The position numbers and the translations under genes are program-made. Positions 547 to 29,066 of a stretch of 64,000 bases of DNA are shown here, one piece after another. The notes below the pieces were generated by a model. That model made no database searches, was not told where the DNA came from, and worked only from the letters and a program-made list of their open reading frames with translations. The first letter of the stretch is position 1, and each line of letters begins with the position of its first letter. The DNA is from Candidatus Poribacteria bacterium. Its GTDB lineage: Bacteria; Poribacteria; WGA-4E; WGA-3G. The stretch spans positions 62,001 to 126,000 of the forward strand of contig JAPOQK010000095.1 in assembly GCA_026710795.1 (NCBI GenBank), in the 5' to 3' direction.

Positions 547-2715
547 ATGTCAATAGATGAATATACGACAGTTCAAACCGAACATGTTGCGATGTTAGCA
601 TCAGAACTTGCAAAACGAGAGATACCAATAATTGACCAATTTGAACCGATTGCAGATTTTGAAGAACTCATCACATTTGCAGAAGCAAACCCTACACCAA
701 TTGAATATAGTGACCAACACCGTGCATGGCAACTTGAATCAGTTGCAGCACGCGTTATTGAGGTTCTCGGTATTGCAGCGCATGAAACACTTTACAAACC
801 AGCATGGGAACCGTTGGCAAGAATACTATTAGATCATATTGAGTATTTATATACTTTTCCTGAAGCACCGACAGCACGTGAGCGGTTGGCAGCCGGGAGT
901 GCGTTGGCATTAGCAGGTAGCGTCTGTTCTATATTACCACAATCTGAACTATGGAGATTGGCTGGATTTGGACGTATTGCTGCAAACCTCACTGAAGTTA
1001 ACCCAACTTCTACAGATACACATATAATTCAACCAATAGATTCAGCATTTTTGCTTGCAAGTAACCTCAACCTACCAATTCTGGGTTCAGCGAAAAAATG
1101 CTATAATTCAGTCCTTAATCGCAATTTTACGTTTCAGAATCAAATAGAGTTTCCGTTAAGTGATGAAGCCATCTTAGGTTATCTCAATCTGGAATATGAC
1201 GGATTAGAAGATGTCCACTCTGCTGTTATGAGGGGGGACAACACGGCTGCAATGTCTGCATATACAACCTATCGTAAAGAGTATATCAAGCACTTTGACG
1301 GTATCCTATATTTGGCAAAAACGGATACAATTAATGCAACAAAATTATATCTGGAATGTTTGCTAAAATTGTCCATTTATCCTACACCATCTATTTTAGC
1401 GACAGCAGAAATTGGTATTGCTGCGCTTCTCTTCCCTGAATTTCGTATTAGTGCACAACTCCTCATATTGGCATCTCGTCGATATAAGTGGATAGTTAAT
1501 GCCTACTTTTACCCGGATGGTTTTCATAAAGACATATTACTGCGTTCACAAGTAGAAGCAATTACCGATTTTTCAAGATTTCTAACAGTTTTTGATAGGG
1601 TTAAGGAGACTTGGCAATTTGAATGTGTTGATGAACTACAGAATTTATTAGAGAAGTTGGAAAAAGCATGCATCTATATTTGTCAACCAGATAAATCTTT
1701 TCCACCTTTCGGTGCTAATTTCCTTGACAATACAGATGTTATTGAACTGCGGAATATCACTAATTTTAATCGGGATAATAGTGAGTTGCAGACATTATCA
1801 TACGCACTACCTTATACTGGTTACTATGTAATGAGAGATAGTTGTGAACCTGACGCACAATATCTCTGTTTTGATAGTGGACCAATCGATAATAAAGGTT
1901 ATGATGATAAGTTGAGTTTCGTGTTATTCGCACATGGAAGACAACTAATTAAGCACAACTATGGAAGTAAAGAAGAGAATGAATCCAGTACAGCAAGCGA
2001 AGCACATAACGTTGTTCTGATTGATGGAAAAAGAGAACTAACGCAACCAGATATTGTTCCGGACCCTGATTCTCGGTGGATTACAACCTCTACTTATGAT
2101 TTTGTTGAGGGGTGGTATAAGGGTTCTGAATGTCATCATAAACGCTCTATCTTTTATATAAAAGGGGAATACTTCATTTTACATGACCTTATTCTCGGTG
2201 AAGGGGAACATATAATACAACAGGTTTTTCACCTAAACACAACAAATATAGTACAGAATGTTGGACAAGTATGGACGCTTGAGCCTGGTCATAGTAATAT
2301 CTATATTGGCACTGCTGATAATATCAACCTTAACCTGCAGATGAATGATAATAAACTTACTTTTAACGCAACACGCAAATTACCCGCGGCTTTAAATGTT
2401 ATCATGTTTCCAATGAAACCTAAAGTGGAACACCAACCCAAAACCAATCCAATTTCTATCATAGCGGATGCTGACATTCTTGCTACCGGTTTCACAGTAC
2501 AGACACACGACGTAACCGATACATTCCTAATCTCTGATGACGGTATAGCAAAGATGTCAACATCCGATACAGATGAAAAAATTGAGTTTGAAGGAGAATA
2601 TCTGTTTCTCCGTGGAGAGAAATTTGTGATGCTCAACGGCAGGTATCTCAAAGTTGGGACAAATGTCCTTGCCGATTTAGATGAACCACGAGAACATTTT
2701 ATGAATATACAATAG
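547..2715 (+). CDS. Heparinase II/III-like polysaccharide lyase family protein
   Basis: The 722-residue product has an N-terminal helical region (about residues 1-400, expected alpha/alpha toroid) and a C-terminal beta-rich half. The family signature runs from YYVMRDS through CFDSGP, a DDKLSFVLFAHGR segment and EAHNVVLIDGKRE. Relatives cleave acidic polysaccharides such as heparin or alginate; the substrate here is unknown. The start at 547 is preferred over an in-frame ATG at 442 because a promoter lies at 481-510 and AAGAGAG precedes 547. No signal peptide is evident. The usual His-rich stretch before D-x-LSF reads KGYDDKLSF here, so activity is uncertain. The next gene follows after 103 nt on the same strand. 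Confidence 0.8.
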   Translation: MSIDEYTTVQTEHVAMLASELAKREIPIIDQFEPIADFEELITFAEANPTPIEYSDQHRAWQLESVAARVIEVLGIAAHETLYKPAWEPLARILLDHIEYLYTFPEAPTARERLAAGSALALAGSVCSILPQSELWRLAGFGRIAANLTEVNPTSTDTHIIQPIDSAFLLASNLNLPILGSAKKCYNSVLNRNFTFQNQIEFPLSDEAILGYLNLEYDGLEDVHSAVMRGDNTAAMSAYTTYRKEYIKHFDGILYLAKTDTINATKLYLECLLKLSIYPTPSILATAEIGIAALLFPEFRISAQLLILASRRYKWIVNAYFYPDGFHKDILLRSQVEAITDFSRFLTVFDRVKETWQFECVDELQNLLEKLEKACIYICQPDKSFPPFGANFLDNTDVIELRNITNFNRDNSELQTLSYALPYTGYYVMRDSCEPDAQYLCFDSGPIDNKGYDDKLSFVLFAHGRQLIKHNYGSKEENESSTASEAHNVVLIDGKRELTQPDIVPDPDSRWITTSTYDFVEGWYKGSECHHKRSIFYIKGEYFILHDLILGEGEHIIQQVFHLNTTNIVQNVGQVWTLEPGHSNIYIGTADNINLNLQMNDNKLTFNATRKLPAALNVIMFPMKPKVEHQPKTNPISIIADADILATGFTVQTHDVTDTFLISDDGIAKMSTSDTDEKIEFEGEYLFLRGEKFVMLNGRYLKVGTNVLADLDEPREHFMNIQ

Positions 2716-22837: not shown

Positions 22838-24040
22838 TCATTTAGGGTTAGAAACAAGACCTGTATCTGATGAAATCGCCATGTCCCAATCAGCGGTAAA
22901 CAACCACCAATTCGTCATTGCACGCTTCTCATATTGAATAATGTTGTTATATCCCGGCATATTTTGCATCCAGTAAATATACCACTGAGATTCAATTCGT
23001 TGCTGTATTTTTTCAGGATTAGGTTCTTTCCAATCATACTTCAGATTTCCATAAGTATCAACATTAACCAACGTCTTTTTGCCGCTATTATCAGGAGTCC
23101 AATCTTCAATATCGCTTTCCACAGATGTCATCGTATCAGTATAGTCGTAATGTCTTGTGGTATTTGGCGGCATGTGTGTCCAACCTGCACGACCTGTAAT
23201 GAAGTTCCCGTCCTCATCCTGACCAACGAACTTCTTCCAAAAAAGGTCGGTATTCCCGAATTGCAGATGATTCGCATGACTTAATATCGCTTCTAACTGA
23301 TGTCCATGATTATGCACCGCTTCGGCATGGCTACGTCGAAAATTCTGTCCATACACTGTATATGTTGATTTGTAAATAGGCAAATCGGTATTATCGCGGT
23401 TACTGTTTGAAATGTCACCTGTCAAAGGACTCGACATATTTGATTCCCACCAGTTTCTGAAATCTTCCAACTTATGCAAAGCAGGATCATAACACGGAAA
23501 ATCAGAATTCACACCACCCATCCACATCCATATCTCTTTGACACCTAAATCGTTGACATAATGCTCCATATTAAATCGTTCAAATATCTTATGGTAATCA
23601 GGAGAATACAGCGGTGTTCCATCCTTTAGGTAAGTAGAAACTGGTCCTTGTGGTGTCTGTTCATATACAGTTATATATTCAACCACACGATAACCTATGG
23701 AAGGTACAGCAGAAGGGTTCTTATACCCTCTGAAACGAGTACCCTCTTCAAGCATAAACTTTACTCGTTTGTCATACAGATCAATCTTTGCCTTGAGTTC
23801 CTTCAAGGACATTTCCCCCAAATCATAAAAATCCGGTGCTTTGCTAACATCCACATTTTCACCATCTGCGGTAGGCAAAAACCGCATGATGACAACAGGT
23901 ATTTCATAATGATGTCCAGCTGCGGGTGTAGCCAAATAAGGATCAATCTCCTCAAATACTGGAGGTATTTCATTAGCACATACAGACATAGACTGCATCA
24001 GTATCACGATAACCACTCCTACAATGTATACATATTTCAT
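22838..24040 (-). CDS. Secreted protein of unknown function with HNHGH motif
   Basis: The 400-residue product begins with a signal peptide (MKYVYIVGVVIVILMQSMSV, cleavage near CAN-E). The mature protein is rich in Trp, Tyr and His, with segments EIWMWMGGVNSDFPCYDP, HAEAVHNHGHQLEAILSHANH and a Trp-rich end (WYIYWMQNMPGYNN). The clustered His and acidic residues could form a metal site. No known family was recognised. It starts 128 nt after the HMA selenoprotein gene with a terminator between, so it is probably a separate unit. Confidence 0.7.
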   Translation of the reverse strand: MKYVYIVGVVIVILMQSMSVCANEIPPVFEEIDPYLATPAAGHHYEIPVVIMRFLPTADGENVDVSKAPDFYDLGEMSLKELKAKIDLYDKRVKFMLEEGTRFRGYKNPSAVPSIGYRVVEYITVYEQTPQGPVSTYLKDGTPLYSPDYHKIFERFNMEHYVNDLGVKEIWMWMGGVNSDFPCYDPALHKLEDFRNWWESNMSSPLTGDISNSNRDNTDLPIYKSTYTVYGQNFRRSHAEAVHNHGHQLEAILSHANHLQFGNTDLFWKKFVGQDEDGNFITGRAGWTHMPPNTTRHYDYTDTMTSVESDIEDWTPDNSGKKTLVNVDTYGNLKYDWKEPNPEKIQQRIESQWYIYWMQNMPGYNNIIQYEKRAMTNWWLFTADWDMAISSDTGLVSNPK

Positions 24041-24168: not shown

Positions 24169-24537
24169 CTATTCAATTACTTGGGCTGTAAAACGCGGCT
24201 GATCATCAATTATTTCTGCTGCTGCAACCGCATCTACTAAAGCAGCAGTTTTTACTTTGTCTTTTTTAACTTTCACAACGGCTTTACCATCCGCTTGAGA
24301 AACACTGACAATCTCAGTAACACCTTCAACATTCTTAAGTGCAGACTGCACACTTGCGACACAATTACCTCATGTCATACCTGTTACTTGTAGACTAATT
24401 TCTTCAATAGCAACATTTGCTTCTACCTGTTCAGTTTCCTCAGTTGCTTCTGGTGTATTCTCTGCAGAGTCTTTCTGGTTAGCGCATCCAAAAATTACAA
24501 CTAACATTACTATGCAGATAAGTGATCTTTTTAACAT
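24169..24537 (-). CDS. Selenocysteine-containing HMA-domain lipoprotein, copy 1
   Basis: The 122-residue product reads through one in-frame UGA (24370-24372) as selenocysteine 56. A lipoprotein signal (MLKRSLICIVMLVVIFGC, Cys18) precedes a Glu/Thr-rich linker. A heavy-metal-associated domain follows, with the site G-M-T-U56-G-N-C59; relatives have GMTCxxC. The domain continues with SVQSALKNVEGV and the KAVVKV strand. The expected role is extracytoplasmic binding of soft metals (copper, mercury) or redox work. A hairpin after the UGA (24339-24351) fits a SECIS. The next gene upstream is a paralogue with the same recoding. A nonsense mutation is unlikely because both copies keep the frame intact. 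Confidence 0.85.
24339..24351 (-). promoter_or_regulatory. SECIS-like hairpin of HMA copy 1
   Basis: GTGCA and TGCAC form a 5-bp stem around the loop GTC, whose first G is 24 nt after the UGA (23 nt between). An alternative outer pairing AAGTG/CACTT is also possible. A G in a small apical loop at this distance suits the bacterial SECIS that recruits SelB. Confidence 0.65.
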
Positions 24538-24561
24538 TTCTAATTATTCCTTCGACTTAAG

Positions 24562-24608
24562 GATAGATTATAAACAGGAATTCAAAAGCACCTTGTTTAT
24601 AATCTATC
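24562..24608 (-). promoter_or_regulatory. Long AT-rich hairpin between the two HMA genes
   Basis: GATAGATTATAAACA-GG (24562-24578) is complementary to CCTTGTTTATAATCTATC (24591-24608) over about 17 pairs with one bulged base. It lies between the stop of HMA copy 2 and the start of copy 1, just upstream of the AAGGA ribosome site of copy 1. It could terminate, process or set the ratio of the two transcripts. No T-run follows directly, so a processing or attenuation role is possible. Confidence 0.55.
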
Positions 24609-24698
24609 TATTTACTGTACATCCGATAATCAAATGAAAATCGGTAGTATATGTAAAATATCAGATGGATGGCGAGTGATGTCCACCCTTTCAATTCG

Positions 24699-25082
24699 TT
24701 AATTAACAGATGACACTGTAAAACGAGGATCTGCCTCTACAGCTTTTATCAAAGCATCGTTACTTACTTTGCCTTTTTCGACTTTAACGACAGCCTTCTT
24801 AGAGTCTCTGTTAACACTCAAAACCTCAGCGACACCCGTGACCTTACTCAGTGCATCCTGCACTGCGGCGGGACACGATGCTCAAGTCATGCCCTCCACC
24901 TGAAGTGTCACTTCCTGATAGGATGATTTTTCTGGAGTCGGAACCGATATATCATCCATCGGTTTTTCTTCCGATGCCATAGTGGTATCTTCAGGCATCT
25001 CTGCCTGTTTACCAATCATACCACAACCTGTCAGGAGCGCAAAGGTAACGAGTGTAATCAGCGCAAATTTCGCGATTTTCAT
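24699..25082 (-). CDS. Selenocysteine-containing HMA-domain lipoprotein, copy 2
   Basis: The 127-residue product reads through an in-frame UGA (24882-24884) as selenocysteine 67. A classical lipoprotein signal (MKIAKFALITLVTFALLTGC, lipobox LTGC, Cys20) precedes an acidic, Met-containing linker. The HMA domain has the site G-M-T-U67-A-S-C70, then AVQDALSKVTGV and KAVVKV, ending in PRFTVSSVN. Start choice is firm: AAAGGAGG sits 7 nt upstream. It is paralogous to copy 1 over the domain but not the linker. Location is periplasmic, membrane-anchored. A soft-metal chaperone or detoxification role is inferred from the fold. Confidence 0.87.
24849..24865 (-). promoter_or_regulatory. SECIS-like hairpin of HMA copy 2
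   Basis: CAGTGCA and TGCACTG form a perfect 7-bp stem around the loop GGA, whose first G is 24 nt after the UGA (23 nt between). Position and loop match the hairpin of copy 1 exactly, and both fall on the codons for VQ-x-AL. Confidence 0.7.
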
Positions 25083-25218: not shown

Positions 25219-25968
25219 TTAGTAAGGTTCTTCTCTGTGTGCATCAAGAAAAGGAAATATCTTTTGAAGGCGCAAGAGTTGTTTATGCACTGCAGCAGCC
25301 TTTTCAAATTGTAGCATTGCAGAGGCACTATTCCGCCTCGCTACTAAATTTGACTGCACTTTTTCATATTCACCATCAAGTAGATTAATTATATTCATAA
25401 TCATCTCTCTATAGAGTTCACGGGTGATGAGTGCAGCACAAGGCGCATAACAACGTTTCATATCGTATTGCAGGCATGCCCTATATCCAGCATGTGGCGT
25501 AATCATTCCCTGACATGTCCTAACCATAAAAATCCGTTGTAAAACATCAATCGCCTCATCTGTCCACCTACGACTGGAAAGTGGACCGAAATACTTGGCA
25601 TCGTCTGCTTGTACCTCGGGAACTCTTTCAAGTAGTGGAAAATCGTCAGATACATCAATACGAATATACCACGTTTGTGTTCCATACTTCAACGCAGAAT
25701 TATATGAAGGTTGATGTTTTTTGATTAGACGCGATTCAAGGAAGAGTGCTTCTTGTTCAGATTGACACACCTGATAACGGACAGTAGCCGTCCATCGGAT
25801 AAGTCGTTTGATTTTGGAACGTCTATTCTTTACATTATGAACATAGGAACGAACCCGTTTACGCAGACATTTTGCCTTACCAATATATAGGATTTTACCC
25901 GATGCACCATGAAAAAAGTAGACACCCGGATCCAAAGGCGCACCTTCGACCATTTCTTTTGTCAGCAT
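25219..25968 (-). CDS. UvrC-like GIY-YIG nuclease, N-terminal half only
   Basis: The 249-residue product has a GIY-YIG domain (GVYFFHGASGKILYIGKAKCLRKRV) with Arg and Glu conserved downstream, then a Cys-rich segment (CLQYDMKRCYAPC). It ends with a UVR motif (ARRNSASAMLQFEKAAAVHKQL). It matches the first half of UvrC, which makes the 3' incision in nucleotide excision repair, but lacks the RNase H-like and HhH parts that make the 5' incision. Length is close to Cho-type proteins. It may be an accessory repair nuclease; a full uvrC could lie elsewhere. Confidence 0.85.
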   Translation of the reverse strand: MLTKEMVEGAPLDPGVYFFHGASGKILYIGKAKCLRKRVRSYVHNVKNRRSKIKRLIRWTATVRYQVCQSEQEALFLESRLIKKHQPSYNSALKYGTQTWYIRIDVSDDFPLLERVPEVQADDAKYFGPLSSRRWTDEAIDVLQRIFMVRTCQGMITPHAGYRACLQYDMKRCYAPCAALITRELYREMIMNIINLLDGEYEKVQSNLVARRNSASAMLQFEKAAAVHKQLLRLQKIFPFLDAHREEPY

Positions 25969-27142: not shown

Positions 27143-28462
27143 ATGAAAAAACCGAACATTGTCGTATATCTATCTGACGATCATGGAAGGGAATACCTCG
27201 GTTGCTACGGAAATACACACATCAAAACACCACACTTAGATCGCATCGCTGAAGAAGGTATGCGTTTTACGCATGCATTTACACCAACACCTACCTGTGC
27301 TCCATCACGTTCCACACTATACACAGGACTATATCCTGCACGTCACGGCGCGATGGGAAACCATACTGAATGTCATTCAACGCTTGAGACCTTACCAAAA
27401 CTGCTACGCGATCAAGGTTACAGAGTTGCAATCGCAGGAAAAACACATGTGAAACCTGCGGAACTCTTCAATTTTGAATATATCGGTGGATTTCTACCAA
27501 AGCGGGAGGAACATAGACGTAAATACCGCGCCGAAGGTCTTGATACCGTTCCAGTTGAAAGATTTCTATCTTCACATCAGCAAGAAAACCCAGATCAACC
27601 AATCTGTCTTATTTTAGGCGATAGCAACCCACATGTTACTTGGGAACCGAACAAGATATATGAGCCGAACACACTACCTTTGCCACCCTATATAGCAGAT
27701 ACACCTATTGCACGGAAAGCACTTGCCAACTACTATCAGGACATCACTACGATGGATACACGTATTGGTGAGGTAGATAGAATGTTGGAAACACACGGAT
27801 ATTCTGATAACACACTTTTTATTTATACAACTGATCACGGATCCGAATGGACCCACTGCAAGTGGACATTGTATGATACAGGTATACATCTTCCATTGAT
27901 CGCAAGGTGGCAAGGTGTGGTTCCAGATTCTTCTGTTTCAGATGCGATGATATCTCATATTGATTTTCTACCAACACTAATAGATATTGCAGGAGGGGAA
28001 CCTTCTGAAGAGATAGATGGCAGAAGTTACAAGGAAGTTTTGTGTGGACAACAAGTAACTTTTCGTGATAAAATATACGGCACACATACACGCGATGGGA
28101 ATATGAACGTTTTCCCACAAAGATGTGTTAGAAATAACAAATACAAATATATCTTAAACCTTATGCCTGAAAATACTTGGACAACACATTTCACACAGGT
28201 AGAGGGTATACCAGAAAGCCATGCAGAAGTATGGAACAGTTGGGTAGAAAAAGCGAAACATGACCCAAAGACTGCAGAACTTGTTTATTTGACACAACAC
28301 CATCCTGTCGAGGAACTGTATGATATAACTGTAGACCCTTATGAATTTGACAATATAGCTTATGATCCAACATCGCATCCGATACTTGAACAGATGCGTG
28401 CTGATGTTCAAAATTGGATGCAAACACAAGGAGACGAAGGAGAAATTGAGTATGATGAATAG
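27143..28462 (+). CDS. Type I sulfatase (formylglycine-dependent)
   Basis: The 439-residue product carries the sulfatase signature C52-A-P-S-R with Cys as the residue converted to formylglycine, and the N-terminal metal residues (NIVVYLSDDHG). A second metal region reads YTTDHGSEWTH. No signal peptide is visible, so it probably acts in the cytoplasm on imported or intracellular sulfate esters. The gene lies between the PhyH gene and the selenocysteine redoxin, overlapping the latter by 11 nt. A formylglycine-generating enzyme is not encoded in the window. Confidence 0.92.
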   Translation: MKKPNIVVYLSDDHGREYLGCYGNTHIKTPHLDRIAEEGMRFTHAFTPTPTCAPSRSTLYTGLYPARHGAMGNHTECHSTLETLPKLLRDQGYRVAIAGKTHVKPAELFNFEYIGGFLPKREEHRRKYRAEGLDTVPVERFLSSHQQENPDQPICLILGDSNPHVTWEPNKIYEPNTLPLPPYIADTPIARKALANYYQDITTMDTRIGEVDRMLETHGYSDNTLFIYTTDHGSEWTHCKWTLYDTGIHLPLIARWQGVVPDSSVSDAMISHIDFLPTLIDIAGGEPSEEIDGRSYKEVLCGQQVTFRDKIYGTHTRDGNMNVFPQRCVRNNKYKYILNLMPENTWTTHFTQVEGIPESHAEVWNSWVEKAKHDPKTAELVYLTQHHPVEELYDITVDPYEFDNIAYDPTSHPILEQMRADVQNWMQTQGDEGEIEYDE

Positions 28463-29066
28463 ACTTATTAATGGTCTTGCATTTGCCGCACTAATTGCTG
28501 TGGCACTAATAGGTTTTGGATGCCTTGATACAAATATGCTTCCAGAAGATTTATTAACAAACCCGCAAGAACCCACTTTTGACCCGTTACCTGCTGGTGA
28601 AGGGTTATCAATAGGTGAGACAGCACCCGCATTTTCGCTTCCTGATGGAGATGGAAATATACATTCCTTAAACGACTATGCTGGAAAAGTGCTGGTACTT
28701 GCTTTTTATGCTACTGGAGGTTGACCGTTTTGTAGAGGACAACTCGGTGAGTTGCAAAATGGATATGAGAATATAAAATCAGCAGGTGCTGCTGAATTGA
28801 TTGCTATTAGTGCTGATACTCCAGCAGGTGCATCTAATACACGTAATAACGAAAATATAACTTATCTTCTACTTTCAGATGATGACAAACTGACTATTGA
28901 TGACTACAATGCCTTTGATCAGAATGGTTCAGGATTAGCACGCCCTACAACCTACATTATTGATGAAAGTGGTAAGATTGCTTGGAAAGACCTCGGTGCA
29001 AGGTATGGTCATCGAACATCTTCGGATCAGATTATCACAGCATTAAATGAATTGGAATCACAATAG
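28452..29066 (+). CDS. Selenocysteine-containing AhpC/TSA-type redoxin lipoprotein
   Basis: The 204-residue product reads through an in-frame UGA (28722-28724) as selenocysteine 91 in FYATGG-U-P-F-C94-RGQLGEL. This is the place where thioredoxin-like and peroxiredoxin-like proteins carry their reactive Cys. N-terminal residues 1-24 form an export signal ending in G-F-G-C, a plausible but not ideal lipobox. The redoxin fold follows: GETAPAFSLPDGDG, the U-P-F-C motif, ELIAISADTP and RPTTYIIDESGKI with the cis-Pro segment. Expected role is peroxide reduction or thiol exchange outside the cytoplasm. AAGGAG precedes the ATG by 9 nt, within the sulfatase gene, so translation is coupled. Confidence 0.87.
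28740..28754 (+). promoter_or_regulatory. SECIS-like hairpin of the redoxin gene
   Basis: CAACTC and GAGTTG form a perfect 6-bp stem around the loop GGT, which begins 22 nt after the UGA (21 nt between). A GGU apical loop is the arrangement expected for SelB binding. Confidence 0.72.

Follow-up and report, generated by a model that had tools for sequence, protein, structure and literature searches.

Two adjacent genes of a Candidatus Poribacteria genome, located in a window of 64,000 nucleotides (the whole stretch of DNA analysed here), probably encode selenoproteins in which an exported HMA site, composed of one selenocysteine (Sec) and one Cys, would most likely bind mercury or copper outside the cytoplasm. 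The assignment of both in-frame UGA codons as selenocysteine codons is strongly supported by comparative sequence evidence.

The gene pair and its predicted products

Genes A and B are arranged head to tail on the minus strand (Table 1). In the product of each gene, an export signal containing a lipobox-like Cys precedes a low-complexity linker and a single HMA domain, and in both cases the HMA domain is complete only with readthrough of the UGA. The UGA stands where the first Cys of the metal site belongs (GMT-U-ASC in gene A and GMT-U-GNC in gene B). A previous sequence-only reading of this DNA had given the residue numbers 56 and 67, the motifs and the PRFT tails as they are found here; the pair that it placed at 24339-25082 is real, but the start of that range drops the last part of gene B. 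The GGNATGACNTGANNNNNNTGY pattern occurs twice in the window, compared with no occurrence in 100 shuffles. Judged by eye, the lipobox of gene A (LLTGC) is a textbook example, with its GC conserved among relatives, and that of gene B (VIFGC) is weaker.

Table 1. Features of the gene pair and its surroundings (window coordinates)
Feature	Position	Strand	Remarks
Gene A, predicted Sec-HMA lipoprotein	24699..25082	minus	127 aa, U67, GMTUASC
Gene B, predicted Sec-HMA lipoprotein	24169..24537	minus	122 aa, U56, GMTUGNC
Gene A UGA codon, predicted to be read as Sec	24882..24884	minus	UGA in all orthologues examined
Gene B UGA codon, predicted to be read as Sec	24370..24372	minus	
Gene A predicted SECIS hairpin, AGUGCAGGAUGCACU	24850..24864	minus	columns 21-35 of alignment A1
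Gene B predicted SECIS hairpin, UGUGCAGUCUGCACU	24338..24352	minus	
GIY-YIG domain protein	25219..25968	minus	upstream of pair; adjoins it in almost every relative compared
AhpC/TSA-type redoxin with in-frame UGA	28362..29066	plus	UGA 28722-28724, U121, TGGUPFC; candidate second selenoprotein locus

With Cys written for Sec, the two proteins score 37.0 and 40.5 bits against the Pfam HMA model (PF00403; gathering cut-off 24.8). A pair of Cys ligands (CxxC) is typical for this family and is not required for the Pfam score; here the first ligand is Sec and the second is Cys, and the typical CxxC is absent. The AlphaFold model has a pLDDT of about 90 within the HMA domain and shows the beta-alpha-beta-beta-alpha-beta fold. 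The closest solved fold is that of MerP (1osd; TMt 0.89, 42% identity), with a further MerP structure, 1afi, also near.

Evidence for selenocysteine decoding

The sequence-only reading had proposed checking the genome for selA, selB, selC and selD. In the 4.7-Mb assembly selA, selB, selD and tRNA-Sec are all present; the tRNA-Sec (query RF01852) adjoins selB, and selD itself carries a UGA. The same reading had called for homologues to be compared for Cys or Sec at the site, and this comparison also came out in its favour: the relatives keep the UGA, which is therefore not a sequencing error, and the frame downstream is under purifying selection (after the UGA, the median dN/dS is 0.24 across 15 genomes for gene A and 0.25 across 12 for gene B, and there are no other stops). 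In the relatives search, each close orthologue of gene A contains exactly one in-frame UGA. Matches were found in 80 of 85 genomes of the phylum search, and among the matches listed about 70 of the 73 order-level Poribacteria genomes have at least one UGA-containing copy, whether single-domain or tandem; the order genomes without one, again among the matches listed (G010, G022 and G065), are incomplete or fragmented assemblies. The in-frame UGA is both conserved and aligned with Cys in homologues, a pattern by which bacterial selenoproteins are recognized.

A hairpin of the form (A/G)GUGC-A-G(G/U)N-U-GCACU lies 22 nt downstream of the UGA. The published bSECIS model specifies a stem of at least 4 bp, a loop of 3-9 nt, a G in loop position 1 or 2 and a distance of 16-37 nt from the UGA, and the hairpin conforms to it as regards the length of the stem, the loop G and the distance. 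All 116 distinct Sec sites retain an intact four-pair core, and the first loop base is invariably G (116/116). At one of these sites (L147:2103-2162), a compensatory change from G-C to A-U has altered both codons. At 115 of the 116 sites Val in the stem is encoded by GTG, a codon that accounts for only 15% of the Val codons in window genes. Among 18 related Cys sites, of which one is a spurious short frame, only 4 have an intact core; since the Sec and Cys sites are phylogenetically related, these counts are not independent. In the tandem proteins of L136, L191 and L192 (see below), a single Val-codon change breaks the stem in Cys domains that sit beside nearly identical Sec domains.

When the 62 nt after each UGA were folded one sequence at a time, their stability was not above that of shuffles (z +0.98 and -0.43), and so the case for a SECIS element is comparative only. 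Covariation between columns is modest, as the core is almost invariant, and the argument rests on codon choice and on the contrast between Sec and Cys sites. An Rfam scan of the window gave no match. On this comparative basis, the short hairpin probably acts as the SECIS element directing UGA decoding in the pair. Near position 2106-2170 (plus strand) of locus L153, which lies outside the order, a Sec-HMA frame contains an in-frame UAG within the hairpin stem, at a codon that specifies Gln in relatives; candidate readings of this UAG are error, decay and recoding.

Two other interpretations of the UGA codons have to be considered. The UGA might be a true stop, with the frame downstream a relic or the product of an assembly error. 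In favour of this, UGA does act as a regular stop at other places in the window, where it terminates 6 of 37 long ORFs, mostly with short extensions; however, dozens of genomes keep the codon, selection on what follows it is purifying, the hairpin is conserved and the Sec machinery is complete. The comparative evidence already rules against a true stop, which we consider very unlikely, to the point of being negligible. The frame would equally be open in any code in which UGA has sense, and UGA could then specify another amino acid throughout the genome. The six ORFs that end at UGA contradict such a code, which would also leave the Sec-linked hairpin unexplained, and we give it almost no credence. 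Stop-codon relic, sequencing error and altered code were accordingly rejected on the conserved UGA, dN/dS, stop usage and the hairpin.

Sec-HMA domains elsewhere in Poribacteria

Related domains also occur in tandem. Secreted proteins of L135, L138 and L192 contain four HMA domains, three with Sec and one with Cys, and that of L136 contains five, three with Sec and two with Cys. The largest number of Sec residues is found in L191:7149-8573 (plus strand), where four Sec domains, each with its own hairpin, are followed by a final Cys domain without a hairpin. In all five of these arrays the last domain is a Cys domain.

The window's own genome has a third Sec-HMA gene, whose 563-aa product combines a CxxCH motif and WD40 repeats with a Sec-HMA domain at the C-terminus. 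A locus with this combination is L155:7062-8750 (minus strand). In the WD40 fusion, families f1 and f3 have Sec and family f4 has Cys. The sequence-only reading had taken the adjacent duplicates for a dedicated system, a view borne out by the lineage-wide conservation, the tandem multi-Sec proteins and the third Sec-HMA fusion.

Long P-type-ATPase-like frames with HMA domains are mostly without UGA, and Sec therefore appears to be largely confined to exported proteins. The Sec-HMA lipoproteins of family f3 (L148, L150 and L208) have UGISC or UGVSC, that is, UxxxC, which is one residue longer than the normal loop. The non-Poribacteria loci of the protein scan contained no Sec-HMA motif.

Genomic neighbourhood

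The UGA-split redoxin is kept at about 2-7 kb from the pair in most relatives compared, and the genome contains three more redoxin copies, each interrupted by a single in-frame UGA. A dioxygenase and a sulfatase are also found within about 2-7 kb of the pair in the relatives compared, among which the neighbouring genes showed no metal link. An exported 400-aa protein without a Pfam match adjoins the pair (window 22838-24040, minus strand) and is kept across much of the genus. Nothing points to a mer operon: MerA was below cut-off in all 40 genomes, and a MerT search gave no match, although its positive control was likewise silent.

Comparison with known systems

The pair scores far below the cut-offs of all named family models. 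The UxxU metal-binding (seleno)protein NF041115 reportedly stems from a study of an Olavius symbiont. It resembles the pair in having an HMA-type domain with Sec as first ligand, and differs in its two Sec residues (UxxU) and 74-position model, whereas the window proteins have UxxC and a lipoprotein leader; against this model they score 48.0 and 50.7 bits (cut-off 95), and the UxxU motif is absent. NF041115 is listed as an HMA-type selenoprotein in a 2026 catalogue of 119 families, which has no entry for a single-Sec HMA lipoprotein form (PMC13188914). The selenoprotein HMA domain is thus already known as an idea, and it is the single-Sec UxxC lipoprotein form that is uncatalogued.

MerP (TIGR02052; 35.9 and 49.0 bits for the pair, cut-off 92.55) is likewise a periplasmic HMA domain and the closest solved fold, and has a Sec form, two Sec "MerP" sequences having been described in the GOS survey (PMC2398784); the window proteins differ as a lipoprotein pair for which no mer operon was found. 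Sec also occurs in the heavy-metal transport proteins NF045683 (MerT/CopZ fusion-like selenoprotein) and the UxxC E1-E2 ATPase, but these are membrane transporters and the pair has no transporter part. CopZ, Atx1 and ATP7A/B share the ferredoxin-like HMA fold and the GMTxxxC loop, and ATP7A/B also has tandem domains; in contrast to the Sec-containing pair with its export signals, these proteins are Cys-only and cytoplasmic. The CopZ model NF047957 gives 49.4 and 52.9 bits against a cut-off of 85.

Discussion

A scheme for the pair can be proposed as follows. tRNA-Sec and SelB would decode the UGA, which occupies the position of the first ligand in the HMA metal loop, under the direction of the short putative SECIS hairpin 22 nt downstream. 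Judging from the signal peptide and lipobox, the precursors would be exported and lipid-anchored, such that the Sec-Cys ligand pair, held in a MerP/CopZ-like fold, would face outside the cytoplasm. The ligand pair would most likely bind a soft metal more tightly than a Cys-Cys site, and the lipoproteins would then hold the metal or pass it on. The strongest candidates are Hg(II) and Cu(I), since MerP and copper HMA domains come nearest in structure and both ions are strongly bound by selenolates. In an oxidising compartment, Sec may also be easier than Cys to re-reduce after oxidation. The three- and four-Sec tandem proteins of relatives could represent higher-capacity scavengers. Counting against this scheme are the lack of any sign of a mer operon, the neighbouring genes with no metal link, and family f3, in which UxxxC in place of UxxC would alter the metal loop.

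The main rival is a redox function, in which UxxC would cycle between selenol/thiol and selenenylsulfide, or would reduce partners such as copper-site proteins, possibly with the nearby Sec redoxin as its partner. UxxC is a usual redox motif among selenoproteins, the site is extracytoplasmic, the redoxin is retained at a short distance in most relatives compared, and one fusion links an HMA domain to a protein bearing the CxxCH haem motif. The fold and motif, however, are those of metal binders rather than of thioredoxin-fold oxidoreductases, and several Sec residues per tandem protein fit binding capacity better than catalysis; we therefore regard redox as the main job as rather unlikely, while taking it seriously. 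We rate still lower a copper chaperone that serves not detoxification but the assembly of a copper enzyme or cytochrome enzyme outside the cytoplasm. CopZ-type models are among the best NCBIfam matches and the fusion of CxxCH and a WD40 propeller exists, but no copper enzyme was recognized adjoining the pair in the relatives compared, and such a role seems improbable.

Returning to metal binding outside the cytoplasm, a broader proposal can be put forward, more tentatively and at slightly less than even confidence: that Poribacteria evolved an exported selenol metal-capture system from one recoded HMA module. It would take the form of lipoprotein pairs, of poly-HMA proteins in which as many as four Sec residues are each under their own SECIS, and of the cytochrome-motif/WD40 fusion, while the cytoplasmic ATPase HMA domains keep Cys.

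In most known selenoproteins, Sec is believed to serve redox catalysis. Throughout the present lineage, a single module in which Sec is probably a metal ligand has been retained, duplicated and built into arrays. The closely similar Cys copies that share a polypeptide with it are natural controls, making the contribution of Sec to metal binding directly testable, and the four-Sec protein is an unusual case of repeated UGA decoding within one short message. Standard annotation is expected to cut all Sec-HMA proteins at the UGA. If the proposal is true, the exported selenol capture system would operate outside the cytoplasm as a selenium equivalent of metallothionein or MerP.
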